Shown here in pieces: positions 23,295-44,604 of a stretch of DNA of 64,000 bases. A program made the position numbers and the translations under genes. Under the pieces are notes generated by a model. That model did no database searches and was not told the origin of the DNA. It saw only the letters and a program-made list of their open reading frames with translations. The stretch covers positions 62,001 to 126,000 of the forward strand of contig JANSYN010000003.1 of the NCBI GenBank assembly GCA_024742415.1, written 5' to 3'. The number at the start of each line of letters is the position of its first letter. The stretch's first letter is position 1. This DNA comes from Gammaproteobacteria bacterium (lineage in GTDB: Bacteria; Pseudomonadota; Gammaproteobacteria; Pseudomonadales; Halieaceae).

Positions 23295-24473
23295 TCACTC
23301 GGAGATAGGCCAACGACCGTCGCCGGTGTAAAAGGCAAAGCGCTCTGCGATCAGTTCGCGAGTCAGCCCATATTCGGCCAGGTCGTACTCGTGCTTGCCG
23401 TGCTTGCCCTTGGGATTGGCGTCAATGTGTGCCTGTAGCACTGCCCTGGCGTCGGCTGACAGAGGCAGCTCAAACGACTGGTAGACGCGCTCGACCACGC
23501 CCATCGGGTTCTCGACAAACTCTGCCTGTGAGCAGTCCACGAACAGCTCCTGCGGATAGCGGGCGCGCATGTCGAGGCCGCGTTCCAGCGACAGTGCATA
23601 CCACTCCATCACAGCGCGTCCGATCTCGCCGGCATCGATGTGGCTGTAGTCGCCGGCGTACATGTGCATCACCACCTTGTTCATGCTGTTGATAGACGGG
23701 ATGACTTTTTGCGGATCACGATGGCACCAGATGAAGCGCGCATCGGGGAAGACCTCGAGAATCGCGTCGATGCCCCACATGTGGGCCGGTGCCTTGAGCA
23801 TCCACTGCTCGCCAGGGTTGCGCCAGTTCAGCATTTGCATTTGTTGCTTCTGGTAGGCGTACATGGGCCGCAGGTCTTGCTGCAGGATCCAGCTTCGATA
23901 CGGTTCGAGCATGATCTCAAAGCCCAGCTGCACGCCGGTAAAGGCATAGGCGTGCAGCAACACGCATTCCTCGGGTGTGTCTGCATCAACGAAGTGGATT
24001 TTGGCGAAATCCGAGTTACGCGTCTCTTCCAGTGCCTTGACCAGGTAAGGGTAACGTGGGTCCTCCTGTCCTGGCTCGCAGCCAGGCCATGGATCCGGGA
24101 ACTGGACTTCCCATTGCAGCAGGCCGCGATTCTCAGGGGCTGCCACCAGCAGGTTGAGCAGCGCTGAGGTACCGGAGCGTGGCAAGCCTGTGACGAAAAT
24201 GGGCGCGGTGATTTTTTGTTCGTGAATGGCCGGGATCGTCTTGAAGGCGTTTTCACACTTCAGGCGCGTCGCCAGTTGCATAACCACTCGGTCGCGGCAA
24301 CGCTTGCGACCCTCCGGATCGCGAATGTGGTTGTCATAGGTTTGCAGAAGGGTTTCAAGGCCTTCCCGAAATGGCAGTTTGCCAAAGTCATCAAAACCCG
24401 TTTGTCCGACCGCTTCGGCTATCAGTTCGTCTGCATCGTAGTTGACTGTAGTGTTTATCGCCTCTTCGCTCAT
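23295..24473 (-). CDS. PAPS-dependent sulfotransferase family protein
   Basis: 392 aa from the ATG at 24473, which overlaps the stop of the upstream DUF1214 gene as ATGA; a longer frame upstream has no support. The 5'-phosphosulfate loop is TGLPRSGTSALL (95-106) and the 3'-phosphate-binding segment is WCHRDPQKVIPSINSMN. It moves sulfate from PAPS to a hydroxyl on a small molecule or glycan; marine gammaproteobacteria carry many such genes with unknown acceptors. The sat-cysC pair at 46.6-48.4 kb could supply PAPS. Last gene of the 21-kb minus-strand island. Confidence 0.88.
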   Translation of the reverse strand: MSEEAINTTVNYDADELIAEAVGQTGFDDFGKLPFREGLETLLQTYDNHIRDPEGRKRCRDRVVMQLATRLKCENAFKTIPAIHEQKITAPIFVTGLPRSGTSALLNLLVAAPENRGLLQWEVQFPDPWPGCEPGQEDPRYPYLVKALEETRNSDFAKIHFVDADTPEECVLLHAYAFTGVQLGFEIMLEPYRSWILQQDLRPMYAYQKQQMQMLNWRNPGEQWMLKAPAHMWGIDAILEVFPDARFIWCHRDPQKVIPSINSMNKVVMHMYAGDYSHIDAGEIGRAVMEWYALSLERGLDMRARYPQELFVDCSQAEFVENPMGVVERVYQSFELPLSADARAVLQAHIDANPKGKHGKHEYDLAEYGLTRELIAERFAFYTGDGRWPISE

Positions 24474-25573
24474 TTCAACTCCGACAGTTTGGCGACACGG
24501 GTGTTCAGGGTGGGATGCTCCTGTGCACCAATCCAGCGCCAGCACATCGTGCCGAGGCTGTGGCCGGCCGTTTCAATCCAGTTCGGCACGCCAGGGTCAG
24601 TGTGCGACACCACCACGCGCACGCTGCCGTCCTGCTCGTAATGCGCCGTGTGCTTGTTGACGTGAATGGTGTGGTGGCGGTAGTCAAGGGATTCCATCCA
24701 CCAGTTGTCCAACTGGAAGTTCCAGGTCTGGCACTCGGGAATGGTGGGTGCTTCGATGATGAACACCTCGTCTTCCGCAAGCTGCCAGGCGCTGTGAAAA
24801 TAGAAGATATTGGGGTCGCCGCCAATAGCCTGGCAGTAGGCCTGGTCAGCGGGCGGCAGTTCGTTCAGTGTGGGCAGGAAGCTCTCGGCCCAATCCTCAA
24901 ACATTTTTGCCGAGCCTTGCATAAACATCGCCGCGCCCTGCAGGCCGCGTTCAAGTTTTTCTGCTGACAAGGGCTCCGGCCGGTCATCGCCCGCACCGAT
25001 ACGCTCGATCTTGATCTCGGCGCGTTTTTCGTTGACCCGATCCTGGAAGGTCTGGCGAACGGTGATAGAGTTCGTGCCATTGCCCATAGGCAACCAGTTT
25101 CCAGGCTGCTCTTCGCGGCTGATAATAATGTCGATTTCACCGTTGGGGCCGATCTCCATCTGGCGATGGTCAATATGCCCGGTGACCTCCATGGTGCCAT
25201 CAACGGCATACTTGTTGATGATGGAACTAATGCCCAGGTAATTGACGGTGCCGCGCGTGCCGGTAATGCGATAGTTGTACTTAGGATTGATCGGCGCGCT
25301 CTCGTAGCGGTTGTCTGGATTATCTGCGCCGAGCTTGATCGTTTCGTGCGCGCCGCAGCGCAACTGCGGGAACATGGGGTCGCGAAATTCAAGGAAGCTT
25401 TCCAGCCCCCCGCGCAGCAGGCGCGTCAGGTAGCGATAGCCCTCAGCCTGGTTGAAAGGATCCTTGGGCGCCTTCTCCGATTGAATAATCTTACCGGCTT
25501 CTTTAAGGGCGTCGCAAAACTGCTCCCAGGTGGTGCCATCGACCACGCGTTTCTCGGCATCGGACATAGACAT
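24470..25573 (-). CDS. DUF1214 domain-containing protein
   Basis: 367 aa from the ATG at 25573 (an ATG two codons later is equally possible). No signal peptide or membrane segment. The C-terminal half holds a DUF1214-like beta-rich domain (FYFHSAWQLAEDEVFIIEAP, then WNFQLDNWWMESLDYR), a fold of unknown function. Its 4-base overlap with the sulfotransferase start suggests the products act together, perhaps on the same metabolite. A family role in substrate binding is often supposed but not shown. Confidence 0.8.
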   Translation of the reverse strand: MSMSDAEKRVVDGTTWEQFCDALKEAGKIIQSEKAPKDPFNQAEGYRYLTRLLRGGLESFLEFRDPMFPQLRCGAHETIKLGADNPDNRYESAPINPKYNYRITGTRGTVNYLGISSIINKYAVDGTMEVTGHIDHRQMEIGPNGEIDIIISREEQPGNWLPMGNGTNSITVRQTFQDRVNEKRAEIKIERIGAGDDRPEPLSAEKLERGLQGAAMFMQGSAKMFEDWAESFLPTLNELPPADQAYCQAIGGDPNIFYFHSAWQLAEDEVFIIEAPTIPECQTWNFQLDNWWMESLDYRHHTIHVNKHTAHYEQDGSVRVVVSHTDPGVPNWIETAGHSLGTMCWRWIGAQEHPTLNTRVAKLSELK

Positions 25574-25731
25574 AGCTGAACCTTTTGTGACGTTCTGTTG
25601 GGTGGCTTGCAAGTGTCTGTAATGCACGCACCTGAATCAATGGCTGGCGCAATCATGCAACTGCAAAAGTCTGCATAGCCCCAAAAGGGTCTAGCCCATT
25701 GAACCGCGTTGCAGGTGCCAACATCCCCGTG

Positions 25732-27849
25732 CTATTCGTCCGTGCGCGGTGCCCCGACATAGTCAACATAGATAGGTGAAGTCCACGCGTGCGGTTCGGC
25801 CGGGCTAAGGCAATCCTCATCGGCCGGTGCATTTTCGTCAATGCAGTAGCGCCTTTCGATGCAGTTGCCCGCATCGTCATGCTGACAGCCAAAGGGGTCA
25901 CCACTGATCAAGGGCTCGGCCCGCTGCAGAACCCGTGCATAGTACAGCGCTGGCCGTTGCACCGATGCAAACTCCGGGTCATCGAATTCCGCGCTGCAAC
26001 CGGTGCCATCTGCGGGGCAGTCGAATACCTTCCAGCGGTGGTCGATCAGTGCTGCAACAGGCTCCGCCGGATCGACCTGTGGTCGAATACGTACGATTTC
26101 AATGCGCTCTACAGGTTTGCGCCGGTCGGCAGGATGATAGCACTGGCCACCACACAGCGATGCGACGCGCGCATCGCCCAGCGCCGAGCGTGCATATCCA
26201 GGACACCCCGGCTGTTGTTCAAAAGCACCCAGTGCCTTGACGCGAAAGCGCGGAGTTTGTGACATCACAACCTCGCTGCCCATGGGTACTTGCCCCGCCG
26301 GCCCATTGAGCAGGTCGAACCAGACCAGTGTTCTGTCGCCGGAGGTGGCGTAAACGTGACGTTGCTCCAGGCCCTGCCAGATGGCATCCCGGTGGCGCCC
26401 ATTGGCGTGCACGGCAACGAGCCCGCCCGTGTAGTAAAAGCTGCCTGATTCCCTGTCCGCTGTGTAGGACCATGTCGGTTCACCGCTGACGCTCTTGTTG
26501 TCGGTAGCGAGTCGCCGGTTGACTTCCTTGTACGAATTGCCCGGCCGCGCCAGGTGGTTGTCGCTGGAGCCGATGAGTCCAAAGCGCGTGCGCCTGGGTC
26601 TGCCCTGCGCATCAAAACCCAGCGCCAGATTGTATTGCGTTGACTGCCGTGGCACATACATGGAAGCGGGCTGAAAGGTATTTTGCAACTGGCCGCAACC
26701 GGCCCAGTCGTCGAGTGTGGCATTGGCAATGACGTTACGACCCTTGCGCGGGCCTGCTTGCAGGAACGCGCTCACGGTGCGCTCTATCTCTTGCGCGCAT
26801 TGTGCTGACGCGGGATCGTCGCAGCGTGCGCGTATGATCTGCGCTGCCTGTTGACAGCACGGGGTGAAATTCGGCGTTGCATCGGGGCAAACAAGGTCTC
26901 CGCTGTCGTCGACCGCGATACGTTGAAAATCCTCGTAGCGCTCTGAGTTGCCATGTCCTGAATAGGTTTCCAGCAGGCGCTGGTACCGCGCTTCGTACTC
27001 ATCCAGCTGGTTGCGGAAGTCAGCGGTAAGCGGGTTGGTTGTGCCCCAGGCAAGACCATGTGGTATGACCAGGCTGTCCAGGGCCCATTCGTCCAGCTTC
27101 CTGTAAAGCACCGAGGGCGTAGCCGCGACTTCGCGGCAGTCATCGGGCAAGTCTCGCACGGGTACGTTGGCGGCGCAGGTCGGGGTCTCGCGTGACTCCT
27201 TGAAGTACCAGCCCATGTCAGCGCTGGTTTGCAGGTCTTCCGCCAGGCTAATCAGTCCCAGCAGTGGCGCAGGCACCCGCGTAAAGATGTAGTTGCGGGC
27301 AGAGGCAATGGGGCGTGTGGGTGTTGCGCCCTCCTCCCAGGTGCGAAAAATCACGTTCTTGTGGCCGTAGTGGCTGGGCACGTCGTCGCTGTTACCGTTG
27401 GACCATTCCCACCCGACAAAAGACACCATGTCGGGAAACTGCGCGTCACCTGCGTTGGCATTGCAGGCCCGCACGGCATCGACCGTGTCGGCCCAGACGC
27501 GCGGCGTCAGGCCTTCCGCATGATCATTGATACTCCAGAAATCCAGTGCCGAGCAGTAGCGCGCGTAATCGCACGCATCGGCAGGTGTTACCACTCCCAC
27601 GTCTTTCATCAACGCCGTGTTGAATACGTAGGCATCCAGTGAATAGTTTGTATGGGTATGCAAGTCGCCGAACAGTATCTGTGGCTCGCCCGCTGCCTGG
27701 ACAATCGCGGGGCGCGGGCCGGCAGTGACTGGCAGGGATTGCCACGGGCCACCGCCCGCCAGCCCGCTGCCTACCGCGTAGAACCAGCCAGTGGCAAGTA
27801 CCAGCATGCCCAGTAGCACCAGTGCCAGAAGTACCATTTTTCTTAGCAT
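25732..27849 (-). CDS. DUF3604 domain-containing, membrane-anchored protein
   Basis: 705 aa from the ATG at 27849 with AAGGAG 10 bases upstream; a GTG seven codons earlier is less likely. An N-terminal hydrophobic anchor (residues 5-27) precedes a large periplasmic DUF3604 domain opening with ILFGDLHTHTNYSLDAYVFN, a PHP/metallophosphoesterase-like His-rich segment. Cys pairs (for example CCQQAAQIIRARC) fit an exported, disulfide-bonded protein. DUF3604 proteins are frequent near sulfatases and TonB receptors; a hydrolytic role is plausible but unproven. Confidence 0.85.
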   Translation of the reverse strand: MLRKMVLLALVLLGMLVLATGWFYAVGSGLAGGGPWQSLPVTAGPRPAIVQAAGEPQILFGDLHTHTNYSLDAYVFNTALMKDVGVVTPADACDYARYCSALDFWSINDHAEGLTPRVWADTVDAVRACNANAGDAQFPDMVSFVGWEWSNGNSDDVPSHYGHKNVIFRTWEEGATPTRPIASARNYIFTRVPAPLLGLISLAEDLQTSADMGWYFKESRETPTCAANVPVRDLPDDCREVAATPSVLYRKLDEWALDSLVIPHGLAWGTTNPLTADFRNQLDEYEARYQRLLETYSGHGNSERYEDFQRIAVDDSGDLVCPDATPNFTPCCQQAAQIIRARCDDPASAQCAQEIERTVSAFLQAGPRKGRNVIANATLDDWAGCGQLQNTFQPASMYVPRQSTQYNLALGFDAQGRPRRTRFGLIGSSDNHLARPGNSYKEVNRRLATDNKSVSGEPTWSYTADRESGSFYYTGGLVAVHANGRHRDAIWQGLEQRHVYATSGDRTLVWFDLLNGPAGQVPMGSEVVMSQTPRFRVKALGAFEQQPGCPGYARSALGDARVASLCGGQCYHPADRRKPVERIEIVRIRPQVDPAEPVAALIDHRWKVFDCPADGTGCSAEFDDPEFASVQRPALYYARVLQRAEPLISGDPFGCQHDDAGNCIERRYCIDENAPADEDCLSPAEPHAWTSPIYVDYVGAPRTDE

Positions 27850-27927
27850 AGTCTCGTGACTCCTTGGCACCCTGTCGTGTCAGCTGTTATCGGCACGCGA
27901 TGTCTCTGTCGGGTGCTGTGATTGCCT

Positions 27928-29631
27928 TCACAGCAGTTTGAGCAGTTGCTCAAACACGCGAATCACTGCGCCGTGATACCAGGGCACTGGTGGGTCTTCC
28001 TCGGGCACCCCATATTGGATGCGCAATGCCGCCAGCTGCCGCTTTAACAGAGCAATCTCTGCGGCACGTTCGGGACGGCCGTACAGATTGGCCTGCTCTT
28101 GTGGGTCCGTGTGCAGGTCAAACAGCTCCCATTCGTCGTCCTGGTAATAGTGAATAAGTTTCATGCGTCCGGTGTGAATGCCGTAGTGACGTGCCACGCC
28201 GTGAAAGCCCGGATTCTCATAGAAGTGGTAATACAGCGCCTCGCGCCATTGCGTAGGCTCTTGCTGCAGTAGCGGCAGCATATTCCTGCCGTGCATGGGC
28301 TGCGGTGCAACCACTCCGGCAGCGGCGAGTAGCGTGGGCGCAAAATCGATGTTCTGTACCAGTGCCTGCGAACTGCTGCCAGCTTCCACCTGGCCTGGCC
28401 ATTGCACCAGCAAGGGTACGCGGGAGGACACTTCATCCATCCAGCGCTTGTCAAACCAGCCGTTCTCACCAAGGAAAAACCCCTGGTCGGACGTGTAGAT
28501 GACGATTGTATTTTCCAGCAGGTCATTGGCCGCCAGATAGTCAAGCAGTCGGCCTATCTCCCTGTCCATGCTTTTGACGGCGGCAGCATAGGTCTTGATA
28601 TAGCGTTGGTACTTCCAGCGAACCTGCGCGTCGCCGCTGGGTTTGAGTCGGGCATACTGTGCATTGCCGGCAGAGAAGGCTTTCTCCCACAGGGTTGCTT
28701 GTTCGGGCGTTAAATGACGTGGCATGCTCAGCTTGACGTCGTTGTTGGTCATCCAGTCTGCGATGGACATTCTCGCCTCACGCCGGGCAGCGACTTCATC
28801 GCTCAAATCGCGCAGTAATGTTGGCGGCTCCTCGATACGCGCGTCTTCGTCCCAGTCGCGCAGTTCCTGCGGCCCTGGCAGCCAGTCCCGATGCGGCGTC
28901 TTGTGGTTGTAGATCAAGAAGAAGGGCTCTGGCCTGCTGGCGTTCTCTGCCAGCCACGCAATGGCTTTGTCGGTGATGATGTTGGCCACATACCCGCTGG
29001 TTTTTTCTATCCCCTGGGCGCTGCGGAACTCGGGGTTGTAGTATGTCCCCTGTTCGAAACTGTTATGGATGACTTCCCAGTGATCAAACCCCACCGGATC
29101 ACTGTACAGGTGCCACTTGCCGACAACTGCCGTGCTATAACCCGCTTCCTGTAAAAGCAAAGGTAGTGTCTGTTGTTCGCCATTGAAGGGTCCGGACCAT
29201 TCATTGCTGTAAAAGCCGTTGGCGTGACTATGCTTGCCGGTCAGCATCGTGGCGCGACTCGGCCCACAGATTGAATTTGCCACGTAGGCCCGATCAAAAC
29301 GCATCCCGTTTCGCGCGATCCGATCAATGTTCGGTGTAGACAGCTGCAGGCGCGATTCGCCGTAGGCGCTGACCGCGGCAACGGCATGATCGTCAGACAT
29401 AATAAACAGGATGTTCGGGGGCTTTGCTGCCGCGGGCACCGTCCACAGTGCCCCTACAAGAAGCAGCAGAAGCAGCGCACGGGCCGAATGCCCCGCCGCG
29501 CACAGCCTGCGGGCCTGTCGCTGCCTCGCGCCGGGAGGCCGGATTGCGCACCTCCCGGCCGGCAACTGCGCTGTCTGGCGCAACAACGCGAGCAGGTGCG
29601 GGTGACATGAAGGCTGGTGTTCTGAGTCCAT
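27928..29631 (-). CDS. S1-family sulfatase (formylglycine-dependent), exported
   Basis: 567 aa from the ATG at 29631, supported by AAGGAAG 9 bases upstream. The active-site motif CGPSRATMLTG places the Cys to be converted to formylglycine at 122, after NILFIMSDDH with metal ligands Asp80 and Asp81. The signal-like helix (residues 51-68) follows an unusual 50-residue Arg-rich N-terminal stretch, so the true export start could be debated, though no better start codon exists. It removes sulfate esters from a carbohydrate or related substrate in the periplasm. It sits 11 bases after a second sulfatase gene. Confidence 0.9.
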   Translation of the reverse strand: MDSEHQPSCHPHLLALLRQTAQLPAGRCAIRPPGARQRQARRLCAAGHSARALLLLLLVGALWTVPAAAKPPNILFIMSDDHAVAAVSAYGESRLQLSTPNIDRIARNGMRFDRAYVANSICGPSRATMLTGKHSHANGFYSNEWSGPFNGEQQTLPLLLQEAGYSTAVVGKWHLYSDPVGFDHWEVIHNSFEQGTYYNPEFRSAQGIEKTSGYVANIITDKAIAWLAENASRPEPFFLIYNHKTPHRDWLPGPQELRDWDEDARIEEPPTLLRDLSDEVAARREARMSIADWMTNNDVKLSMPRHLTPEQATLWEKAFSAGNAQYARLKPSGDAQVRWKYQRYIKTYAAAVKSMDREIGRLLDYLAANDLLENTIVIYTSDQGFFLGENGWFDKRWMDEVSSRVPLLVQWPGQVEAGSSSQALVQNIDFAPTLLAAAGVVAPQPMHGRNMLPLLQQEPTQWREALYYHFYENPGFHGVARHYGIHTGRMKLIHYYQDDEWELFDLHTDPQEQANLYGRPERAAEIALLKRQLAALRIQYGVPEEDPPVPWYHGAVIRVFEQLLKLL

Positions 29632-29642
29632 GTTCAGCTTCC

Positions 29643-31409
29643 TTATTTCGCAGGCACGACGACGGTAACTACGTTGCTTTCTTCCCAACCGTAGCGCACC
29701 GCCTTGGCCTCGACAGTAGTGCCCGGGCTTACCGGCACCGGCCTGCTGTAGAGCTGCCAGGCCCCGTTGTTGATGCGATAGCCCACTGAGGCGGATTCAC
29801 TGGTGCTCAGTTGCAGGCGACCTTCATCCAGTTGCGCAACGGGCGGCGCGGTCACCGGTGTTGTGCCTTCGGGCTGAAAGTCCTGTGCCATTGAGCTTTC
29901 AGGCCTGTCGCTCCAGTCCTCGATGCTATCCAGCCAGGCTTCCAGTGCCAGGCGCATGCGATCAGCGTCCAGTTGGTACTGCGGTTGCTCAAGCACGTTG
30001 TTGAGCTCGAAGGGATCTTTCTGCAGGTCGAACAGGCGCTCCTCCCCTACGGGTTCGAACCACAATCGTTGCCTGGCATTGAGCCGGCCGTCTTCATAGA
30101 GCGCGCGCATTTCGCGCACCATGTCGATATTGTCGCGAAAGCGCAGCGGATGACCGCCAGCGAGGTGGGGATGCCAGCTACGAATATACTTGAAGCGCTC
30201 ATCCGAGACTGCGCGTTGCCGATCCGGTATTTCATCAATCCGGTCGCGCGAGGCGAAGACGTAGCGCCTGCGCTCGCCGCTTAAAAAATCACGGCCGTGC
30301 ATGTGCGCGGGTACTTCCACACCGGCCAGTCGCAGCACTGTGGGTGCGATATCAACAAAGCTCACCATGCGTAGATCAACCGAGCCTGGCGCAACGCCCT
30401 GGGGCCGATACGCTTCTGGCCAGCGAATAATCATCGGGACCTTGATGCCGGAGTCGTACAGTTCACGCTTGCCGCGCGGCAACCCGTCACCGTGATCGGT
30501 GGTCCAGATGACGATCGTAGAATCTGCCAACCCGTCGCTTTCGAGTTGCTTGAGCAAGGCACCCACCTGCCTGTCCATGATTGCAATGTTATCGTAATGA
30601 CGTGCCATGTCGGCGCGCACAGTCGGTGTGTCAGGGTAGTAAGGCGGTACGATAATCGCGGCGGGGTCGGTAGATTGCGCCAGTTCCACGTCGGGCGATT
30701 GCACCGCGCGCAGCACCTGCATCACCAGGTGGATAATACTGTGTGGCCAGTGTCCCAGTGGCTGGAATATGCCGCTTTCGTGGGTGACCGCAAAATTCGT
30801 GAAGCCGAAAAAGGGCTGTGACGGCTTGCGATTGCGCCAGCTGGTGTCGCGCCCGGTGTCGTCCCAGATCGTAAATGGCCCGGAGCGCCAGAAAGGGCCG
30901 CTGAACTGGTAGTCCAGTTTCGTATCCGTGTAGGTGTAGTAGCCCGCACGTCTTAACAACTCCGGATAGGCTTTGGCGTAAGGCGGTGGTACCGACAGGT
31001 AGCCGCCATTGGGGCCGCCGCTACTGCGCATGTGCTGGCTGCCGGTGGCAATCTGATGCATGCCCAGAATGTGCGCCGCCCGGCTCGGCGCACACACACC
31101 GGCCGTGGTAAACGTGTTGGGGTACATCACACCCTGCTGTGCCAGAGCATCCAGGTTGGGGGTGTCTGCCACCGGATCACCAAAGCGTCCGACCCTGGCG
31201 CTCATGTCTTCTGCCATTAGCAGCAGTATGTTAGGCGCAGCGCGTGCTGGCGCGTTATGGCGTGCTGTTCCGCTTGCGGTAGTTTGTGCCGTTTGTGCAG
31301 AATCTACCGCGGGACTCGATGCGAGCACCAGGGCATGCCCTTGCAGCACTGGCAAGAGCAGACCCGACAGCAGGCCAATAACGATAACTCGCACCGCGCT
31401 CAAAACCAT
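29643..31409 (-). CDS. S1-family sulfatase with C-terminal beta-rich domain
   Basis: 588 aa, ATG at 31409 inside the end of the TonB-receptor gene (10-base overlap). A signal peptide covers residues 1-28. The formylglycine motif is VCAPSRAAHILGMHQ with Cys106, after LLLMAEDMS (62-70), where Glu67-Asp68 replace the more usual Asp pair. The last 80 residues (YRINNGAWQLYSRPVPVSPG, then VEAKAVRYGW) form a small domain resembling the chitobiase/hexosaminidase C-terminal type, possibly glycan-contacting. It hydrolyses sulfate esters, probably in the periplasm. Confidence 0.9.
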   Translation of the reverse strand: MVLSAVRVIVIGLLSGLLLPVLQGHALVLASSPAVDSAQTAQTTASGTARHNAPARAAPNILLLMAEDMSARVGRFGDPVADTPNLDALAQQGVMYPNTFTTAGVCAPSRAAHILGMHQIATGSQHMRSSGGPNGGYLSVPPPYAKAYPELLRRAGYYTYTDTKLDYQFSGPFWRSGPFTIWDDTGRDTSWRNRKPSQPFFGFTNFAVTHESGIFQPLGHWPHSIIHLVMQVLRAVQSPDVELAQSTDPAAIIVPPYYPDTPTVRADMARHYDNIAIMDRQVGALLKQLESDGLADSTIVIWTTDHGDGLPRGKRELYDSGIKVPMIIRWPEAYRPQGVAPGSVDLRMVSFVDIAPTVLRLAGVEVPAHMHGRDFLSGERRRYVFASRDRIDEIPDRQRAVSDERFKYIRSWHPHLAGGHPLRFRDNIDMVREMRALYEDGRLNARQRLWFEPVGEERLFDLQKDPFELNNVLEQPQYQLDADRMRLALEAWLDSIEDWSDRPESSMAQDFQPEGTTPVTAPPVAQLDEGRLQLSTSESASVGYRINNGAWQLYSRPVPVSPGTTVEAKAVRYGWEESNVVTVVVPAK

Positions 31410-36114: not shown

Positions 36115-36133
36115 GATGTATTCTCCTGATGTC

Positions 36134-36406
36134 CTAGTGGCCACGCAGTTTCGCAAATACCATTGGCAGCAACAGAACTGCCGCGGCACTGCCGATACTG
36201 GCGTGGAGTTTGTAGCCTGAGGCGCCCAGGTAATAGCCCGCAGCCTTGAAAGCGCCGTAGCCCCAGTACACCGCCTCGACCTTTATCAGGTGGTAAAGCT
36301 CATAAAAGGCCGTCGCAGTAGCGGGCAGCAGGAAGTAGATATACAGCGCTAAACACAGCGCGATGATCCAGCGTCTGGTAGGTATTGTCATAGTTGATAT
36401 CGCCAT
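36134..36406 (-). CDS. Small two-helix membrane protein upstream of dehydrogenase subunits
   Basis: 90 aa from the ATG at 36406 (GGAG 11 bases upstream); a later ATG at 36391 is possible. Hydrophobic segments lie near residues 14-34 and 66-84, with Tyr/His-rich sequence between them. I do not recognise the family. It is 19 bases upstream of the Tat-exported subunit, in the place where a cytochrome subunit might be expected. It has no CxxCH, so it is not a c-type cytochrome; a role as membrane anchor is speculation. Confidence 0.65.
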   Translation of the reverse strand: MAISTMTIPTRRWIIALCLALYIYFLLPATATAFYELYHLIKVEAVYWGYGAFKAAGYYLGASGYKLHASIGSAAAVLLLPMVFAKLRGH

Positions 36407-36494
36407 GCGTTGGTGGTCTCCGAGGGCGCGTATGTGCCGCTGTGGCTGAACAGCCGGCACGGGCATTCATTTTGCGTAAAGCGACCGGTGCGAT

Positions 36495-37337
36495 TCACAG
36501 GTTCGTCCGAATAAAGGTAATGCCGTGTTCGTAAACTTCCTCACGCGAGGTAAACGCATTGCGCCACACGTTGGCTGCACTGGCCAGGTTCTGGTCTGTC
36601 GTGCCGAACGCCTCGATGACGAGCCAGCCTGAGTAATTAATCTTGCGCAGCGCTTCAAAAGTAGCGGCCCAGTCGACCTGGCCCGTTCCCAGTGTGCCAC
36701 GGTGGCTTTCGCTGAGGTGTATATGTTTGAGCGCCGGCGCGGCCCGGGCTAGCGCTACGCCGGGTGCGGGTTCTTCGATGTTGGCGTGGTGCGTGTCATA
36801 GTGAATACCGACGTTGTCCAGGCCGACCTGCTCCACCATGCGCGCACAGTCTGCCACGGTATTGATCAGGAACACTTCAAAGCGATTGAGAACCTCCAAT
36901 CCCAGGGTGATGCCCTGTGTTTGTGCATATTCACCGCAGGTGCGCAGGTAGTCTGCACACCACTGCCACTCCTTTTCGGTGGCGCCTGCGCCGGTAAAAT
37001 ATTTGTGTGCCTGGTAAATCCCTCCGATCAGAATGTCCGCTCCCAGCAGCGCCGCGCCGTCGATGCTGCGTTTGAGGTTCTCAACTGCCGCCGCACGAAT
37101 GCCCGGTTGGGCAGAAATCGGGTTGGCCTGTTCCCCCACGAACGCCGACGCGGTGCGTGCCAGGCCAAGCTCGTCGCAGGCCCGGGCCATTTGCAGGAGT
37201 TCCTGCTCGCTTTGTTCTGCAACGGGAATCTCCACCCCGTCGTAACCGCAGGCCGCCAGTGCCGCGAATACAGGTATGTCGCGGGGAGTAATGTGCGTGC
37301 CCCACAGCAGCATATTCATCCCTATTTTTATCGACAT
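36495..37337 (-). CDS. TIM-barrel sugar epimerase, D-tagatose/D-psicose 3-epimerase-like
   Basis: 280 aa of the sugar phosphate isomerase/epimerase (AP-endonuclease 2) superfamily. It starts MSIKIGMNMLLWGTHITPRD and carries HLSESHRGTLGTGQVDW near residue 210, which is characteristic of D-tagatose/D-psicose 3-epimerases, with metal-ligating Glu, Asp and His residues in GLEVLNRFE and GIHYDTHHANIEE. It would epimerise a ketose at C3, or act on a 3-keto sugar derivative in this context. ATG at 37337 with AGGCG. Confidence 0.85.
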   Translation of the reverse strand: MSIKIGMNMLLWGTHITPRDIPVFAALAACGYDGVEIPVAEQSEQELLQMARACDELGLARTASAFVGEQANPISAQPGIRAAAVENLKRSIDGAALLGADILIGGIYQAHKYFTGAGATEKEWQWCADYLRTCGEYAQTQGITLGLEVLNRFEVFLINTVADCARMVEQVGLDNVGIHYDTHHANIEEPAPGVALARAAPALKHIHLSESHRGTLGTGQVDWAATFEALRKINYSGWLVIEAFGTTDQNLASAANVWRNAFTSREEVYEHGITFIRTNL

Positions 37338-37384
37338 TCGCGCCTGCTCGCCTTTATCGGTATCAACAGCGGTAACGCTGGCAT

Positions 37385-38044
37385 CTAGGATAAACCCCTT
37401 ACGGGCACCAGAGCGCCGTGCACTGCTCGAGCAGCGTCTGAGCCAAGAAAACAGATCACATTGGCCAGGTCCTCAGGGTCTACCCACAGCGACGGATCAG
37501 CATCGGGCATACCGGCACGATTGGCCGGGGTATCGATCACGGTAGGTAAAACCGCGTTGACATTTATGCCCTGTCCGCGAACTTCATTTGCCAGGCTTTC
37601 GGTGATGCGCATCACAGTGCTTTTGGAGGCACAGTAAGCCGACATATCCGCCTGGCCCTGAAGCGCGCCATAGGCACCGATGTTAACGATACTGCCGCGA
37701 GTACGTGCCAGCAGCCTGGGTACCGCTATGCTCAGCACGTTGCGCAAGGTGGTGACGTTGATCCTGAACAGGAAATCCCAGTCGGCGTCATCCGACCAGG
37801 CAGCGGCGCCCATCGCGAAACCGCCCGCGATGTTAAACACGCCGTCAAAATCACCCATCGCATCAAAACAGCCCGCGACTGCCTCGGGCGCAGTCAGGTC
37901 AACCACGTGACGCTGGTCGGTTACCTCGTCAAAGGCAATATCCAGTTCGTGGACCAAAGCACCGTGCTGACGGGCCACCGAGCAGACTGCGCGACCCAAT
38001 GCGCCGTTGGCGCCGGTTACGACGAAGGTTTTTCCTTGCAACAT
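37385..38044 (-). CDS. Short-chain dehydrogenase/reductase lacking the catalytic serine
   Basis: 219 aa, shorter than common SDRs. TGANGALG (10-17) and YCASK (Tyr137, Lys141) are present, but the position 13 residues before the Tyr, normally Ser, is Ala124 in NIGAYGAL. It may use another residue, accept an unusual substrate or be non-enzymatic. Its neighbours are sugar enzymes and a sugar permease, so a polyol or keto-sugar substrate is reasonable. GAGG lies 12 bases before the ATG. Confidence 0.82.
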   Translation of the reverse strand: MLQGKTFVVTGANGALGRAVCSVARQHGALVHELDIAFDEVTDQRHVVDLTAPEAVAGCFDAMGDFDGVFNIAGGFAMGAAAWSDDADWDFLFRINVTTLRNVLSIAVPRLLARTRGSIVNIGAYGALQGQADMSAYCASKSTVMRITESLANEVRGQGINVNAVLPTVIDTPANRAGMPDADPSLWVDPEDLANVICFLGSDAARAVHGALVPVRGLS

Positions 38045-38140
38045 TTATCTCATCCTCTGTGTTGTAGCGTCACGGCAGCCAGGCTGCCGTGTGTTCAAGG
38101 CGTTACTGCCGTTGCCTGCGTGCTGCCTGTGGCCGGAACA

Positions 38141-39424
38141 TCAGCTATCCCGACGGCGGTCGGCAAGCCAGATAATGCCAAATACCGGCAGCAGCAACAG
38201 GGGTACTATCGCAACCGACTGGAATGACTCCACAGACGCGTAACGTTCGACATCGATCAGAGCCTGCCCGCTAAGCAGGTCCAGCTGCGCGATGCCGCCG
38301 GCCGCTTCGAGTTTGGCCTTGTCGTAGATCGCACCCATCTGTGGCAATACAAACTGGATGGCCATGCCGCCGGCAAAGCCCATCAGCCCCAGTGCCAGTG
38401 CACCGCCTTTCGGGAAACGCTCTGCAATTATGCCCAGCATGGTTGGCCACAGGTAACACACACCAATGCCCCACACCGTGGCAGCCGCAAACGCCAGCAA
38501 CGGCGTATCGGCCAGGCTCAGCAGGTACAACCCCACGCCTGCCGCAAGACAGCTCACAAACATCAGCCCGATGGAAGAGATACGATCTACAATCGGCCCG
38601 GCAAAATGCCGCATCACAAACATCAGCGCGCTCACATACACCAGTAGCAGGATGCCCTGCATGCCGACAATCTTCGACAATGAGATATTCACCCATTGGC
38701 CGGGCGCTAATTCTGCGGTCGCGGTGAGGAACATGCAGGCCCAGAAAATCCAGAACATCGGGCGTTTCACCAGCTCGGCGAGCATCTCGCCGTAGCTGAC
38801 TCCCGCAGCAACGCGCTCAGTGACCGGGAACGCCGAAGTGGCGACCAGCCACAACAGGACGAGTGCCGGTGCCATCAGCACCAGCATGTTGAGCTTCCAG
38901 TCCCAACCGAAGCTTGCGATACCCACGCCGAGCAAACCGCCGATGACGATACCGGCAGGCCACCAGGCATGCAGGATATTCAGCCGGTGGGTTTTTTCCT
39001 CGGGGTACAACGCTGCAACCATGGGGTTGGAGGCAGCTTCCACTGCGCCCCAGCCAAGGCCAGTGAGCAGAAGGCTTACCAGCACCAGCGTGCCGACAGA
39101 ATCATCGATGGGCATCATCGTCGCCGCAAGCAGCCCTGCCGAGCCAGCGATATAGCCCAGGGCAGATAGCAGCAGCATTTTTTTCATGCCTATCAGGTCT
39201 ACCAGTGCACTGCCGAACAGCAGCGTCAATGCAAACCCGGTAAACGTGGCGCCCAGTGCCTCGCCAAGCAAGGTCGCCGAGTTGGCCAGGTCGATCTCAT
39301 CATAGATATTGGCCTGTAAATCCGGCGCGATATTGGCGCGCACCGCGAAGCCAAGTCCAATCATGAAGATGGAAAGATTGCCCACATAATAGAGGCGCTT
39401 GCGGTCGATTACGTGTTCGGTCAT
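38141..39424 (-). CDS. MFS transporter, probably sugar-specific
   Basis: 427 aa with about twelve membrane helices. LFGSALVDLIGMKKMLLLSA is the MFS loop 2-3 signature region, and GWGAVEAASNPMVAALYPEEKTHRLN-type sequence (positions about 38985-39065) resembles FucP/sugar-proton symporters. It lies among sugar epimerase, isomerase and kinase genes, so it likely imports the xylose-containing sugar or oxidised sugar product across the inner membrane. Specificity cannot be read from the sequence. Confidence 0.85.
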   Translation of the reverse strand: MTEHVIDRKRLYYVGNLSIFMIGLGFAVRANIAPDLQANIYDEIDLANSATLLGEALGATFTGFALTLLFGSALVDLIGMKKMLLLSALGYIAGSAGLLAATMMPIDDSVGTLVLVSLLLTGLGWGAVEAASNPMVAALYPEEKTHRLNILHAWWPAGIVIGGLLGVGIASFGWDWKLNMLVLMAPALVLLWLVATSAFPVTERVAAGVSYGEMLAELVKRPMFWIFWACMFLTATAELAPGQWVNISLSKIVGMQGILLLVYVSALMFVMRHFAGPIVDRISSIGLMFVSCLAAGVGLYLLSLADTPLLAFAAATVWGIGVCYLWPTMLGIIAERFPKGGALALGLMGFAGGMAIQFVLPQMGAIYDKAKLEAAGGIAQLDLLSGQALIDVERYASVESFQSVAIVPLLLLPVFGIIWLADRRRDS

Positions 39425-39470
39425 GCGATAGGCTCCGAATTATAATTATGTTGCGGTTGTGGCAGCGTCA

Positions 39471-40526
39471 CTAATCGATGCCCAGTATACGCCTGTTACT
39501 GGCTTCATCGGCAGCGGCGCCGGCAAAGTCATCAAAGGCCTTGTCGGTGGTACGAATAATGTGGCGATTGATGAACTCTACACCCTCACGGGCACCGTCT
39601 TCGGGGTGTTTCAGGCAGCACTCCCACTCCAGCACAGCCCACCCGCTGAAGTGATAGCGCGCCAGCTGGCTGAAAATCGCGCTGAAATCGATCTGGCCGT
39701 CTCCCAGGGAACGAAAGCGCCCGGGGCGATCGACCCAGCTCTGGTAGCCACCGTACACACCACTGCGACCGTTGGGGTTGAACTCTGCGTCCTTGACGTG
39801 AAACATCTTGATGCGCTCGTGATAGATATCGATGAACTGTAGATAGTCGAGCTGCTGCAGCATAAAGTGACTGGGGTCGTAGAGTATGTTGCACCGTGTA
39901 TGGTTGCCGGTTGCCTCCAGGAAGCGTTCGAAGGTCACGCCGTCGTGGAGATCCTCACCGGGGTGAATTTCGTAGCAGACATCCACGCCCGCTGTTTCAA
40001 AGGCATCCAGTATCGGTAGCCAGCGATCAGCCAGTTCCCTGAACCCGGTTTCTACCAACCCCTGTGGTCGCTGCGGCCAGGGGTACAGGGTGTGCCACAA
40101 TAAAGCGCCGGAAAATGTCGCATGCGCGCGCAGTCCGAGATTGGCGCTGGCTCTGGCCGCCAGTAGTAATTGATCGACTGCCCACGCCTGTCTGGCGCCC
40201 GGGTTGCCATGCACCCGGGGTGGCGCAAAGCCATCGAACTGCTGGTCATAGGCCGGGTGCACCGCAACGAGCTGGCCCTGCAAGTGCGTGGACAACTCGG
40301 TAATTTCCACGCCATTATTGGCACAAATGCCGCGCAGCTCATCGCAGTAATCCTTACTTTCGGCGGCCTTGTCCAGGTCAATCAGCCCCGCCTCCCATGT
40401 CGGCAATTGTATTCCCTTGTAGCCAAGATCGCCGGCCCAACGCGTAATGTTGTCCAGCGTGTCGAACGGGGCCTGATCGCTGGCGAACTGGGCGAGAAAA
40501 ATCGCGGGTCCCTGCATTTTTGACAT
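39471..40526 (-). CDS. TIM-barrel sugar phosphate isomerase/epimerase family protein
   Basis: 351 aa, longer than the epimerase at 36495. Metal-site motifs typical of the superfamily occur in order: VCYEIHPGEDLHDG (Glu, His), NILYDPSHFMLQQ (Asp, His), MFHVKDAEF (His, Asp) and WAVLEWECCLK (Glu). Members include hydroxypyruvate isomerase, inosose dehydratase and TIM-barrel glycoside lyases that cleave 3-keto glycosides. The gene is paired with a Gfo/Idh/MocA oxidoreductase only 3 bases upstream, a pairing common in inositol and keto-sugar pathways. Exact reaction unknown. Confidence 0.85.
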   Translation of the reverse strand: MSKMQGPAIFLAQFASDQAPFDTLDNITRWAGDLGYKGIQLPTWEAGLIDLDKAAESKDYCDELRGICANNGVEITELSTHLQGQLVAVHPAYDQQFDGFAPPRVHGNPGARQAWAVDQLLLAARASANLGLRAHATFSGALLWHTLYPWPQRPQGLVETGFRELADRWLPILDAFETAGVDVCYEIHPGEDLHDGVTFERFLEATGNHTRCNILYDPSHFMLQQLDYLQFIDIYHERIKMFHVKDAEFNPNGRSGVYGGYQSWVDRPGRFRSLGDGQIDFSAIFSQLARYHFSGWAVLEWECCLKHPEDGAREGVEFINRHIIRTTDKAFDDFAGAAADEASNRRILGID

Positions 40527-40529
40527 GTG

Positions 40530-41702
40530 CTATTCCTCGTTAGATAACTGCGTAGAAAAGGTGTGCCATTTTTGCTCGCTGTTGCTTGCCGCAACTGCCA
40601 GCTCGATAAAAGCCATGCCGCGAATGGCCGCTTCAATGCCGGGACAATCCTGGCCGCGTTCGCCGGGCGTCTCACCTAGCTCATAGGCGCGGATCTGTTC
40701 GGCAAAGGCGCAGTAGAGGTTGGCAAACGCCTCCAGGTAGCCTTCCGGATGCCCCATGGGCGTGCGCGTGTTGAGGCTGGCCAGGCTACCCAGGTAGGCG
40801 CCGCCCGTGCGCAGCATCTGCGCCGGACGATCATTGGTTTTCAGCCACAACGTATTCGGCTCTTGTTGTGTCCACGCCAGACCGCCCTTGTCGCCGTACA
40901 CACGCAGGCTCAGGGCGTTTTCCTCGCCGACACAGACCTGGCTGGCATGCAGCAACCCTTTGGCGCCGTTGTTAAACCGTAACAGCACTGCGCCATCGTC
41001 ATCGAGCGTACGGCCTGGGACAAACGAAGTCAGGTCGGAACAGAGCTGGATGATTTGCAGCCCCGACACGTACTCTGCCAGGTTGGCTGCATGGACACCG
41101 ATGTCTCCCATGCAACTGCTGACGCCGGCCTGCGCGGGATCCAGGCGCCATGCCGCTTGCTTGTTATCCTGAGCTTCCTGGTTGTCTGCCAACCAACCCT
41201 GCGGGTACTCAACGACGATCTTGCGCAGGGTACCCAGTTCGCCGGTAGCGACTCTCGCCCGCGCCTCTTTAACCAGCGGATAACCGGCGTAGGTGTGGGT
41301 CAGGCCGTAGAGCAAGCCGGTTTCGCGCAGCAGGCTGCGCAGTTCCAGGGACTGCGCGAGGTCGAGCGTGGCGGGCTTGTCTGACAGCACGTGAAAACCG
41401 GCCCGCAACGCCGCCTCGGCTACCGGGAAGTGCAGGTTATTGGGAGTCACAATGGCAACGAATTGCATACGCTCAGTGGCCGGCAAAGCCGCTTCTGCCG
41501 CCATCATGTGTGTGTAGCTGTCGTACACGCGGCGGGCATCGAGATACAGCGCGGCCCCGGAACGCTGCGAGCGCTCTGCGTCGGCGCTAAATGCACCGCA
41601 GACCAGTTCAATTTCACCATCCAGTGCGGCGGCCATGCGGTGCACGGCTCCGATAAAGGCGCCCTCGCCGCCTCCGACCATTCCCATCCTGATTTTTCCC
41701 AC
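40530..41702 (-). CDS. Gfo/Idh/MocA-family NAD(P)-dependent oxidoreductase
   Basis: 390 aa. It begins at a GTG (41702) with AGGAGAG 6-8 bases upstream and shows the Rossmann start MGMVGGGEGAFIGAVHR, VLSDKPATLDL (an E/DKP motif variant) and the active-site helix GDIGVHAANLAEY with the Asp-His pair. The family oxidises or reduces sugars, inositols and sugar derivatives, including at C3. Together with the TIM-barrel partner it could process 3-keto glycosides; this is inference from gene pairing. Confidence 0.88.
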   Translation of the reverse strand: MGKIRMGMVGGGEGAFIGAVHRMAAALDGEIELVCGAFSADAERSQRSGAALYLDARRVYDSYTHMMAAEAALPATERMQFVAIVTPNNLHFPVAEAALRAGFHVLSDKPATLDLAQSLELRSLLRETGLLYGLTHTYAGYPLVKEARARVATGELGTLRKIVVEYPQGWLADNQEAQDNKQAAWRLDPAQAGVSSCMGDIGVHAANLAEYVSGLQIIQLCSDLTSFVPGRTLDDDGAVLLRFNNGAKGLLHASQVCVGEENALSLRVYGDKGGLAWTQQEPNTLWLKTNDRPAQMLRTGGAYLGSLASLNTRTPMGHPEGYLEAFANLYCAFAEQIRAYELGETPGERGQDCPGIEAAIRGMAFIELAVAASNSEQKWHTFSTQLSNEE

Positions 41703-41768
41703 TGTTTGCTCTCCTGCGGCGCTATCTTCTGTGTAAGTGGATGTCCAGCACGCGTTGTGCAGACCTGT

Positions 41769-43103
41769 CTACAGGAACTGGTTAATCACGTTTTCACACC
41801 ATTCCTGCCTGCCACTGGTGTGCGCAGGCTCGCCGCCCGCGATCGCCAGGTCACGCAAGGCTGTCAGGTCAAGTGCGCCGCGTGTAAACGCTGCGCCATC
41901 GCCACTGTCGAAACTGCTGTAGCGGTCAAGCTTGTACGCATTGAGGGCACCGTTGTCGACAATGGCGAAGGCCGCTTCCAGAGCGCGGGCAAACGTGTCC
42001 ATGCTGCCGATGTGGCCGATGAAAATATCTTCCAGATCCACTGATTCACGCCGCACCTTGGCATCGAAGTTGAGTCCGCCATGGCCAAGGCCACCGTTGG
42101 CCAGTATCACCAGCATCGCATGTACGGCATCATACAGATCAGTGGCAAACTGATCGGTATCCCAACCGTTCTGTGGGTCACCCCGGTTGGCGTCGATACT
42201 GCCGAGCAGGCCTGCGTCAGTGCACATCTGCAACTCGTGCGCGAAGCTGTGGCCGGCCAGGGTGGCATGATTGGCCTCAATATTGAGTTTAAAGTCGCCG
42301 TCCAGGTCAAAGTGGCGCAGGAAGCCGATGACTGTTTGCGCATCGAAATCATACTGGTGTTTGCATGGCTCCATCGGTTTCGGTTCGATCAGGAAGGTGC
42401 CGGTAAAACCAATACTGCGCCCATAGTCACGGGCCGCGTGCAGGAAGCGCGCAAGGTGTTCCAGCTCGCGTTGGGTGTTGGTGTTGAGCAGGCTGGCATA
42501 CCCTTCCCTGCCGCCCCAGAAGACGTAGTTCTCCCCACCCAGCGCAACCGTGGCATCCAGCGCGGCTTTTACCTGTGCCGCAGCATGGGTGACCACGGCA
42601 AAGTCGGGATTGGTGGCCGCACCATTCATGTAGCGCGGATGGCTAAACAAATTGGCCGTGCCCCACAACAGCTTCATGCCGGTACTCTGTTGGCGCTGGG
42701 CGGCCAGTTCTACCATTGCCGCCAGGTTGTTTTCGCTGTGTGCGATACTGCTGCCTTCGGGCGCCATGTCGCGATCGTGGAAGCAGTAGTAAGGCGTGCC
42801 GAGCTTGGTAAAGAACTCAAAGGCTGCATCCATACGCTGGTGTGCGGCGCGCATAGGGTCTGGTGCGTCATCCCACGGGAAGCGCTGTGTATCGTCACCG
42901 AAAGGGTCTGCGCCCCTGGCGCAAAAGGTGTGCCAGTAGCACACGGCAAAACGCAGATGCTCAGCCATGGTGCGCTCGCCCACTTTGCGGTTGGCGTCGT
43001 AAAACTTGAACGCCAGGGGGTTGTCGGAGCCGCGGCCTTCATACTGGATCCTGCCAATGCCGGGAAAGTACTCCCGATCGCCCGTAAAATATGAAGCCGT
43101 CAT
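41769..43103 (-). CDS. xylA: Xylose isomerase
   Basis: 444 aa from the ATG at 43103 (AGGGAGA 7 bases upstream), the expected length for a class II xylose isomerase; the longer upstream frame is rejected. [26 protein letters not shown] and [19 protein letters not shown] carry the metal-binding Glu, His and Asp residues. It converts D-xylose to D-xylulose in the cytoplasm. The kinase gene xylB is 19 bases upstream and a regulator is divergent, a full xylose module. It opens the run towards the oxidoreductases. Confidence 0.96.
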
Positions 43104-43122
43104 GGGGTGTCTCCCTTGGAAA

Positions 43123-44604
43123 TCATTCGTACAACGCGCGAACAAGCTGCACATGGCGCTGGTAGTTGGCGTAGCTGTCCTGGTAAAGCGTGGCGTGAGC
43201 TGCATTGGGTGTGCAGCACCGCTGTGGGTCTTCCTTGAGTTGTGAATCAACAAGGCTGATCAGTTCGCTGCGGCTGCCACCGTGTTGTGTCCACATCGCC
43301 TGCAACGCCGCGCCCAGTGCGGCACCTTCATCCAGCGTTTGCACACTCACGCGCATCTGCAGGATATCTGCCACCATCTGGCGCCATACCGCACTGCCGG
43401 CACCACCGCCGGTCAGGCGCAGCGAATCTGTTCGAGCGCCCAGTGCGTGCAACTTGTCCAGGCCCGCACGCAGGCTGTACACCGAAGACTCCATCGCCGA
43501 ACGCAGCAGGTTCGCTGCGCTGTAATTGGATGTCGTCAGGCCAAACAGGCTGGCACTTGCGCGCGGCAGGTTGGGCGTGCGCTCACCATTGAAGAACGGC
43601 AGTGTGAGCACGCCGTCGCTGCCGGGACTCGCCGCTTGCACCTGGGCATCCACCTGGGCAACCTCGAGTTCGAGGAGCGCGCGGGTCAGTTCAGTAGATG
43701 CCGTACAGTTCATGGTGCAAACGAGCGCCAGCCAGCCACCGGTGGCATCACAGAACGCCGCAACTTGACCACCGGTATCGATGATGGGCCTGTCACTGTA
43801 GCTGAAGATTGTTCCGGACGTGCCCAGGCTCACCGTGGTGCGGCCGGTGGCGACGCTGCCGGTACCTATGGCGGCCATCATGTTGTCGCCAGAGCCGGTT
43901 GCCACTGCAATGCCCGCGGGCAGGCCCAGCGCGCTGGCCGCCTGCGTGCGCAAGCTGCCGATGGTAGTGCCGGGCTCAACCAGCGGTGGCAGGCACTCCT
44001 GCAATTCGCGCTGGCTATCAATGGCCGTGAGCACGGCGGAGTTCCAGCAACGCTGGCGTACGTCCAGCAGGCCGGTGCCTGACGCATCGCCATACTCCAT
44101 CGTGTACTCGCCGGTCAGGTAATAGTTCAGGTAATCGTGGGGTAACAGTATCGTGGCCAATGCCGCGTAGCGCTGCGGGTGACACTGCTGCAGCCAGAGA
44201 ATTTTTGGGGCAGTGTATCCGGGAAGCACCGGATTGCCGGTATGCGCAATGCAGGCCTCAACGCCCCCCAGCGCTGCGGTAAGCTGCTCGCATTGGGTGA
44301 CGGTTGCGGTGTCGCACCAGAGCTTGACGGGAGCCAGAACCGCGCCAGTCTTGTCCAACGGCACAAAGCCGTGTTGCTGACCCGATACTGCCAACGCCTT
44401 AACCGAACGCCTGAGCCCAGGGTCCAGTTGTGCGCAGCAGTCCTGCAGAGCATCCAGCCACCACTGCGCCTGTTGCTCGCGCGTGCCATCGGCGTGACTG
44501 ACGAGCGTCAGCGTGGCCGAGGCGATATCAGCAATGCGGCCTGCCTGCGCGTCATAGATCAGCGCCTTGACGCTTTGTGTGCCAACGTCAATACCCAGGT
44601 ACAT
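43123..44604 (-). CDS. xylB: Xylulokinase
   Basis: 493 aa from the ATG at 44604 ([16 protein letters not shown], aligning with known XylB starts); a GTG four codons earlier is an alternative, and neither has a clear ribosome-binding site. FGGY-kinase motifs include [29 protein letters not shown] with the catalytic Asp, and [20 protein letters not shown] in the ATPase domain. It phosphorylates D-xylulose to xylulose-5-phosphate for the pentose phosphate pathway. First gene of the minus-strand island, divergent from the regulator at 44789. Confidence 0.95.

Follow-up and report, generated by a model that had tools for sequence, protein, structure and literature searches.

An operon of Agrobacterium tumefaciens is among the closest described relatives of the locus analysed here, a sixteen-gene island within a 64,000-nucleotide stretch of a Halieaceae genome (the window: positions 62,001 to 126,000 of contig JANSYN010000003.1, assembly GCA_024742415.1). 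In the sections of PMC10628242 that deal with it, the operon encodes two TIM barrels that resemble sugar isomerases, a Gfo oxidoreductase and a GlycDH dehydrogenase with a twin-arginine translocation (Tat) partner, and its steps are C3 oxidation, beta-elimination, hydration (on preliminary evidence) and reduction; the same source cites ginsenoside deglycosylation as the process in which a GlycDH-type dehydrogenase was first found. The levoglucosan pathway LgdA-LgdB1-LgdB2-LgdC, as outlined in part of PMC10066097, also runs through oxidation, beta-elimination, hydration and reduction, with enzymes of the PF01261 and Gfo families. Two further points of reference are the LacABC/DUF1080 lactose 3-dehydrogenase pathway of Caulobacter (PMC9007349) and the sulfatase-rich loci of marine bacteria for ulvan and lambda-carrageenan.

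The island resembles the A. tumefaciens operon (GlycDH-TAT, AtOGE, AtHYD, Gfo) in its GMC dehydrogenase with a Tat partner, its hydratase, its Gfo enzyme and its two TIM barrels. It differs in that no AtOGE homologue was detected and in the addition of an MFS permease, a TonB-dependent receptor (TBDT), sulfatases, a DUF3604 protein and xylAB; neither the stem sulfat- nor the word xylose occurs in the main text of PMC10628242. With the levoglucosan pathway it shares the predicted reactions and the enzyme families, but its first oxidation would be carried out by an exported flavoprotein (a predicted location) and not by an NAD enzyme, and the substrate class is another. Unlike the lactose pathway, the island contains no DUF1080. 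LacABC has a cytochrome c partner; since the only CxxCH motif in the island is the CGPCH inside the GMC protein, no such partner is evident in it. The S1 sulfatases, one of them S1_8-like, and the TonB receptor recall the ulvan and lambda-carrageenan loci, whereas the absence of glycoside hydrolases (GH), polysaccharide lyases (PL) and SusD, together with a single oxidative sugar-processing route, sets the island apart. No system of this composition was found in the open-access papers searched. The initial annotation knew of no described system either, a view that holds, within this search, for the combination and is wrong for the core, whose 3-keto glycoside chemistry is known. The locus thus looks like known catabolic chemistry in a new combination, in which the coupling to sulfatases and xylose genes appears to be the novel element. 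On the evidence below, we think it somewhat probable that the 14 genes from xylB to DUF3604 form a single unit that breaks down a sulfated glycoside, with a divergent PAS-AraC regulator as its probable switch in this genome.

All 16 open reading frames (ORFs) are read from the minus strand; the first is xylB (44604) and the last a sulfotransferase gene (23295). The intergenic gaps are -10 to 96 nt, with a sole exception of 158 nt between DUF3604 and DUF1214. Gene starts were corrected by a ribosome-binding-site scan and by comparison with relatives, and the corrected starts bear out the run with small gaps or overlaps that had originally been described. Families were assigned with Pfam and NCBIfam profiles. 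The features of the proposed unit, from xylB onwards in gene order, are the following; DUF1214 and the sulfotransferase complete the run.

44789..45514, plus strand: PAS-AraC regulator, divergent (PAS_4 and HTH_18)
44736..44788, no strand: AT-rich conserved element adjoining the start of AraC, likely operator/promoter for the divergent pair (15 intergenic regions aligned; limits approximate, set by eye)
43123..44604, minus strand: xylB, xylulokinase (TIGR01312, 538 bits, above cut-off)
41769..43103, minus strand: xylA, xylose isomerase (TIGR02630, 672 bits)
40530..41702, minus strand: Gfo/Idh/MocA oxidoreductase, candidate 3-keto-sugar reductase (PF01408/PF22725)
39471..40526, minus strand: TIM barrel A, predicted 2-hydroxy-3-keto-glycal hydratase (8ro4, 605.6 bits)
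38141..39424, minus strand: MFS permease (PF07690)
37385..38044, minus strand: SDR oxidoreductase, optional (Pfam/NCBIfam family match)
36495..37337, minus strand: TIM barrel B (TIMB), ketose 3-epimerase family, candidate epimerase or eliminase (sequence, profile and model)
36134..36406, minus strand: small membrane protein of 90 amino acids, conserved upstream of subunit 3 (no family; homologous ORFs)
35494..36114, minus strand: gluconate 2-dehydrogenase subunit 3-like protein (sub3, family gluconate_2-dh3), twin-arginine signal RREFM (PF13618, 108 bits)
33784..35484, minus strand: GMC flavin dehydrogenase, candidate glycoside C3-dehydrogenase (PF05199/PF00732)
31400..33721, minus strand: TonB-dependent receptor (PF00593, PF07715)
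29643..31409, minus strand: sulfatase S2, CAPSR motif, S1_8-like (closest PDB sequences)
27928..29631, minus strand: sulfatase S1, CGPSR motif, GlcNAc-6-sulfatase-like (5g2v, 466 bits)
25732..27849, minus strand: DUF3604 protein, N-terminal membrane segment judged by eye (PF12228, 75 bits)

Both TIM barrels belong to the AP_endonuc_2 family. Four island genes, those for DUF3604, DUF1214, the SDR and the 90-residue membrane protein, had gone unmentioned in the initial annotation. The genome that carries the window measures 4.14 Mb and is 99.65% complete.

Homology gives the oxidative core good support. Over its full length (residues 2-350), TIM barrel A aligns with PDB entry 8ro4, named '2-hydroxy-3-keto-glucal hydratase', and this match, together with the gene types given for the A. 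tumefaciens operon in sections of PMC10628242, supports the earlier proposal that the glycoside is cleaved by oxidation. The Gfo protein, a candidate reductase of the 3-keto sugar, is 48% identical to the Gfo adjoining the hydratase on an Agrobacterium plasmid. Of 11 plasmid regions examined, 9 carry an annotated Gfo next to the hydratase (L148, L149, L152, L179-L183 and L186; L and G numbers are our labels for loci and genomes); in the other two the annotation is merely 'oxidoreductase' (L185) or absent altogether (L184). Relatives of the GMC protein in the PDB are fructose dehydrogenases, glucose dehydrogenases and pyranose oxidases. By sequence family, the GMC protein and its Tat-signal sub3 qualify as a candidate C3-dehydrogenase, the C3 activity being putative. 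Homologues of the 90-residue membrane protein fill 24 ORF rows, 5 of which repeat a contig already counted, and SDR orthologues (71-73%) were present only in G116 and G125 among the genus loci examined. Sequence, profile and model comparisons all place TIMB nearest to ketose 3-epimerases, and its best PDB match is 3vyl. Because the best 50 matches of its model (predicted local distance difference test, pLDDT, 85.4) were all ketose 3-epimerases, we did not adopt an assignment of TIMB as the eliminase. In loci without TIMB, a ThuA-family protein was seen after GMC (L187:13726-14619, L132:12071-12925 and L075:11759-12613).

We then compared the neighbourhoods of GMC in 40 stretches around its places, mapped with the window proteins. 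At E<=1e-60, 42 of 140 genomes of the family had a GMC match, as did 17 of the 18 in the genus. The recurrent order in the genus is Gfo-hydratase-MFS-(TIMB)-(small protein)-sub3-GMC, mostly with a divergent AraC. The core order is kept, with extra genes interspersed, in G052 (another genus) and in Spongiibacteraceae (L132), and Pseudoalteromonas (L149) has a rearranged set, AraC / Gfo-hydratase-MFS-DUF1080-GMC-sub3-TIM. Since the core set turns up again throughout the genus and in further families, the gene run is not due to chance. In a tree of GMC proteins, from which L061 and the partial proteins of G118, G123 and G129 were left out, the window sequence grouped with G125a and G127 (support 96/88), and the wider clade had GMCs linked to sulfatases in 5 of 8 cases, the next clade in 1 of 13 (p=0.014, uncorrected for descent). 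G125 carries two tandem GMC-sub3 pairs (L030:1-5528), one of which adjoins an SDR and sulfatases.

The sulfatases form a module of their own. TBDT, S2, S1 and DUF3604 stand ahead of DUF1214 in the window, G116 and G127 (the GMC of G127 being on another contig), with variants in G125 (no receptor), G115 (no S2 there) and G119 (two sulfatases only). Six of the 15 resolved genus genomes have sulfatases in this slot and nine do not (G118 judged from coordinates only). S2 itself (E<=1e-100) has matches in 30 of the 140 genomes of the family; every one of the 18 genus genomes has it, four of them inside the island (the window, G116, G125 and G127). In G052 the locus reads AraC / Gfo-hydratase-MFS-(S1-like)-sub3-GMC-TBDT-S2-ThuA-DUF3604-sulfatase, and in Spongiibacteraceae L132 S2-LacI-Gfo-hydratase-MFS-glucokinase-sulfatase-sub3-GMC-ThuA-DUF3604, whereas in G010, G053, G028 and G126 S2, S1 and DUF3604 are grouped on contigs with no GMC match. 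The module is thus conserved in itself, and was either joined to the core more than once or inherited together with it. These arrangements link desulfation to the oxidative core, as the initial annotation had it, a tie borne out outside the genus by L187 and L132. DUF3604 travels with S1 and S2. Orthologues of S1 in relatives are 65-71% identical. Both sulfatases keep the CxPSR formylglycine motif, and the FGE-sulfatase family has matches above cut-off in the genome. Halieaceae are described as rich in sulfatases, with 87 in six strains, in the part of PMC10100682 that treats them; the words xylose and GMC are absent from its main text.

xylA has matches (E<=1e-60) in 20 of the 140 family genomes and only one in the window genome. 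Nine of the 15 resolved genus genomes have xylAB immediately ahead of Gfo (the window, G115, G116, G117, G122, G124, G125, G127 and G130); the remaining three of the 18 (G118, G123 and G129) were too fragmented to resolve its position. Beyond the family, hydratase, Gfo, xylA and xylB form a single run in Azospirillum brasilense (L181) and Sulfitobacter (L183), Pseudosulfitobacter (L182) has xylA-hydratase-Gfo, and xylA lies no more than 3 kb from the hydratase in at least nine records (eight Azospirillum, one Sinorhizobium) among the 60 rows listed for xylA, which had 185 matching records. In Burkholderia stagnalis both genes are present and far apart. The neighbourhoods in Azospirillum and Sulfitobacter support xylose as the product of the core, which we regard as likely but not proven. 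With that of Pseudosulfitobacter, they also lend weight, from distant bacteria, to the link between xylAB and the core that had been drawn at the outset. L181, L182 and L183 also carry sugar ABC transporters, a possible xyloside import route. Among 369 genomes of the class, the hydratase (E<=1e-130) was found in 10, xylA (E<=1e-120) in 13 and both in eight (8/2/5/354 by genome, p=7e-12, a co-occurrence confounded by lifestyle). The parts of the island are not conserved only apart from each other: five species combine xylAB, sulfatases and core (G127 has them on three contigs), and xylAB and sulfatases are each also found without the other.

At the head of the island, PAS-AraC orthologues, 55-70% identical, lie beside the core in most relatives examined (43% in Pseudoalteromonas). 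Of the nine xylAB heads, five have AraC on the far side of xylB (the window, G115, G116, G125 and G127), and in G122 the contig ends. The AT-rich element next to AraC is common to five heads with xylAB and ten without (G027 is a poor fit), and in five genomes xylAB is located between this shared AraC-side element and Gfo. Thus, xylAB appears to have been inserted there under the same control. The PAS-AraC originally placed at the head is indeed present and divergent in the window, but it is not a fixed part of the system, being missing in G117, G124 and G130. In G130, G124 and G117 (L038, L041 and L067) a DHH gene is followed by xylB in the same direction, about 115-125 nt apart, and these loci also have no sulfatase module.

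From the observed homologies, gene order, conservation and recurrent xylA/hydratase/Gfo neighbourhood we infer the following scheme, that is, each of its reactions and locations, its regulation and xylose as its sugar. The TonB receptor would carry the sulfated compound into the periplasm, and S2 and S1, matured by the formylglycine-generating enzyme of the genome, would strip sulfate. The Tat-exported GMC/sub3 enzyme would oxidise the terminal sugar at C3, and the MFS permease would take in the 3-keto product. A lyase (TIMB, or a 3-keto lyase encoded elsewhere) would free the aglycone and a 2-hydroxy-3-keto-glycal, which TIM barrel A would hydrate; the Gfo/Idh enzyme would reduce the hydrated intermediate to the free sugar, and XylA and XylB would convert xylose to xylulose 5-phosphate.

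A more specific version of this scheme is tentative and on balance rather unlikely. In it, S2 would remove the 2-O-sulfate of a terminal xylose (ulvan-type Xyl2S) as the gate to a GH-free oxidative cleavage, and DUF3604, secreted or membrane-anchored and with a PHP-like motif, would act as a novel partner in desulfation or ester removal. After 2-O-desulfation, C3 oxidation and C1-C2 elimination would yield 2-hydroxy-3-keto-xylal, which the hydratase, Gfo and XylAB would take to xylulose 5-phosphate. The order would make chemical sense because the elimination product is expected to be a 2-hydroxy-3-keto-glycal. The best five PDB sequences for S2 (three proteins) are S1_8B/A/C sulfatases (242-185 bits; the next match scores 105). 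S1_8B and S1_8C are 2-O-sulfohydrolases, and S1_8 is also cited as holding an exo-xylose-2-sulfate 2-O-sulfohydrolase, in the passages of PMC12549532 on lambda-carrageenan, which also favours the broader scheme; ulvan contains Xyl2S-Rha3S according to a section of PMC8511951. In an alignment of 12 DUF3604 sequences (L132:17645-19516 among the DUF3604 loci noted), an HxH/DH/E/H/DxH set is invariant. We take these residues to resemble the motif of PHP metal enzymes. A single paper among the open-access literature searched mentions DUF3604 by name. The predicted structure of DUF3604 had a mean pLDDT of 50.7 and was set aside.

Several observations weigh against a single unit that delivers xylose. 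The regulator is absent from three xylAB-bearing genomes (G117, G124 and G130), in which xylB follows DHH. S1 resembles a GlcNAc-6-sulfatase, a likeness that fits a hexose and not xylose. No eliminase was identified: AtOGE (8bvk) is absent from the 52 PDB matches of TIMB, the presence of 8bvk in the searched set being unconfirmed, and TIMB itself is missing at some loci (G116, G126, G033 and G052). Three PF06439 (3-keto-disaccharide hydrolase) domains in the genome all lie outside the island. GH3 occupies the slot in G121, and AraC-GH3 stands ahead of the receptor in G115 and G116. Within the genus, the association of sulfatases with xylAB is not significant (5/3/1/5, Fisher p=0.14, 14 genomes). 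As separate observations, the window genome has a PF06439 match within a 1308-aa open frame on contig C4, and G115 encodes near S2 a 1304-aa protein in which a 3-keto-disaccharide hydrolase is fused to DUF7133 and cytochrome c (L188:2229-6143).

The remaining objections concern the sugar. The core may act on glucosides and yield glucose, with xylAB serving another sugar in the same molecule or merely hitch-hiking; we consider this unlikely, though it is the alternative to be taken most seriously. The named substrate of 8ro4 is a glucal and a glucokinase lies in the matching L132 run, so the core may make glucose. Moreover, xylAB is not at the head in six of the 15 resolved genus genomes (G119, G120, G121, G126, G128 and G131), being elsewhere with no nearby core gene in G126 and G128 and on another contig in G120, and among the class genomes that have both hydratase and xylA the two share a contig in the window genome only and lie on different contigs in the seven others. 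These points are opposed by the hydratase, Gfo and xylA neighbours in Azospirillum, Sulfitobacter and Pseudosulfitobacter and by the position of xylAB between the shared element and Gfo in five genomes.

Outside the 14-gene unit lie the end of the island and, on its other side, sulfate-activating genes.

25688..25705, minus strand: 18-bp element GGTTCAATGGGCTAGACC ahead of DUF1214 (upstream alignment)
24470..25573, minus strand: DUF1214 protein (PF06742, 33.7 bits)
23295..24473, minus strand: sulfotransferase, TGLPRSGTS loop (PF13469, 125 bits)
45532..48402, minus strand: flanking DHH-like protein, ATP sulfurylase and APS kinase (DHH 27 bits, just below the Pfam cut-off of 28.1)

The initial annotation counted sulfation as part of the system, and the sulfotransferase, fed by the adjacent genes for 3'-phosphoadenosine 5'-phosphosulfate (PAPS), could re-sulfate the released aglycone or an intermediate. 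Within the genus the DUF1214-sulfotransferase pair does follow the core in the same direction, and DHH, ATP sulfurylase and APS kinase adjoin the island in 12 relatives (G117 without APS kinase, at a contig end). Nevertheless, a role of sulfation in the system seems decidedly improbable. A sulfotransferase at least 66% identical is found in eight genomes with no GMC match at E<=1e-60 (G026, G029, G030, G031, G032, G037, G038 and G039), and in five more (G025, G027, G028, G033 and G044) it is on another contig or more than 50 kb from GMC. DUF1214 adjoins it in 11 of the 13 core-distant loci examined (G026 counted twice, G037 left out). The largest gap of the run, 158 nt, falls just before DUF1214, and the pair has its own upstream element: the pattern GGTTYAA-N5-YRSACY, 18 bp long, ends 88-118 bp before DUF1214 in 19 of 20 aligned upstream regions, and of 25 distinct DUF1214 loci (>=70% identity) 22 have the element, G025, G027 and G044 being without it. 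L154, L155, L156, L160 and L163 were left out of the alignment and judged by a whole-locus scan, and the pattern was derived after the alignment had been viewed. A stricter form matches the window genome once, against 2 matches for its reversed control, and a loose form occurs genome-wide at about the frequency of its reversed control, so only the position ahead of DUF1214 carries weight. Given these independent locations and this element, the claim of sulfation as part of the system is not supported, and we rejected the sulfotransferase as a pathway member. We conclude from gene order and conservation that DUF1214-sulfotransferase is probably a separate two-gene unit outside the catabolic block. 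The 18-bp element is conserved across several genera in which the pair moves. The PAPS genes may be linked to the sulfotransferase; DHH and the PAPS genes were not beside the G025, G027 and G028 loci. The DHH-like protein, ATP sulfurylase and APS kinase are a possible set for making and clearing PAPS near the sulfotransferase locus.

The absence of glycoside hydrolases, on which the initial annotation laid stress, was upheld by Pfam (E<=0.001) for the 16 island genes and 24 flanking proteins, but it is a weak signature: GH3 sits in the same slot in relatives (G115, G116 and G121), and lack of a GH is thus not diagnostic. No PL or SusD family was found by Pfam among the 16 genes, and the island accordingly lacks the marker genes of a polysaccharide utilization locus, both of the SusCD type (SusD) and of the CAZyme type (GH or PL). 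An ordinary hydrolytic locus, in which a GH encoded elsewhere or a GH3 since lost from the slot would cut the glycoside and the oxidative genes would process the freed sugar, recalls the GH3 of those three relatives but is very unlikely, as a genome-wide search, confined to GH3 among the GH families, gave no match in this 99.65%-complete assembly, and a 3-keto-glycal hydratase would be expected only after elimination.

Two subjects for functional work emerge from the comparison: DUF3604, which repeatedly accompanies two sulfatases, and DUF1214-sulfotransferase, a unit with its own conserved element. For the 14-gene catabolic block, the proposed reading would provide a concrete order, 2-O-desulfation and then C3 oxidation, that is open to assay with purified enzymes. 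If this reading is true, sulfated marine glycosides would be dismantled without glycoside hydrolases, and CAZyme-based surveys would consequently miss the route in coastal Halieaceae.

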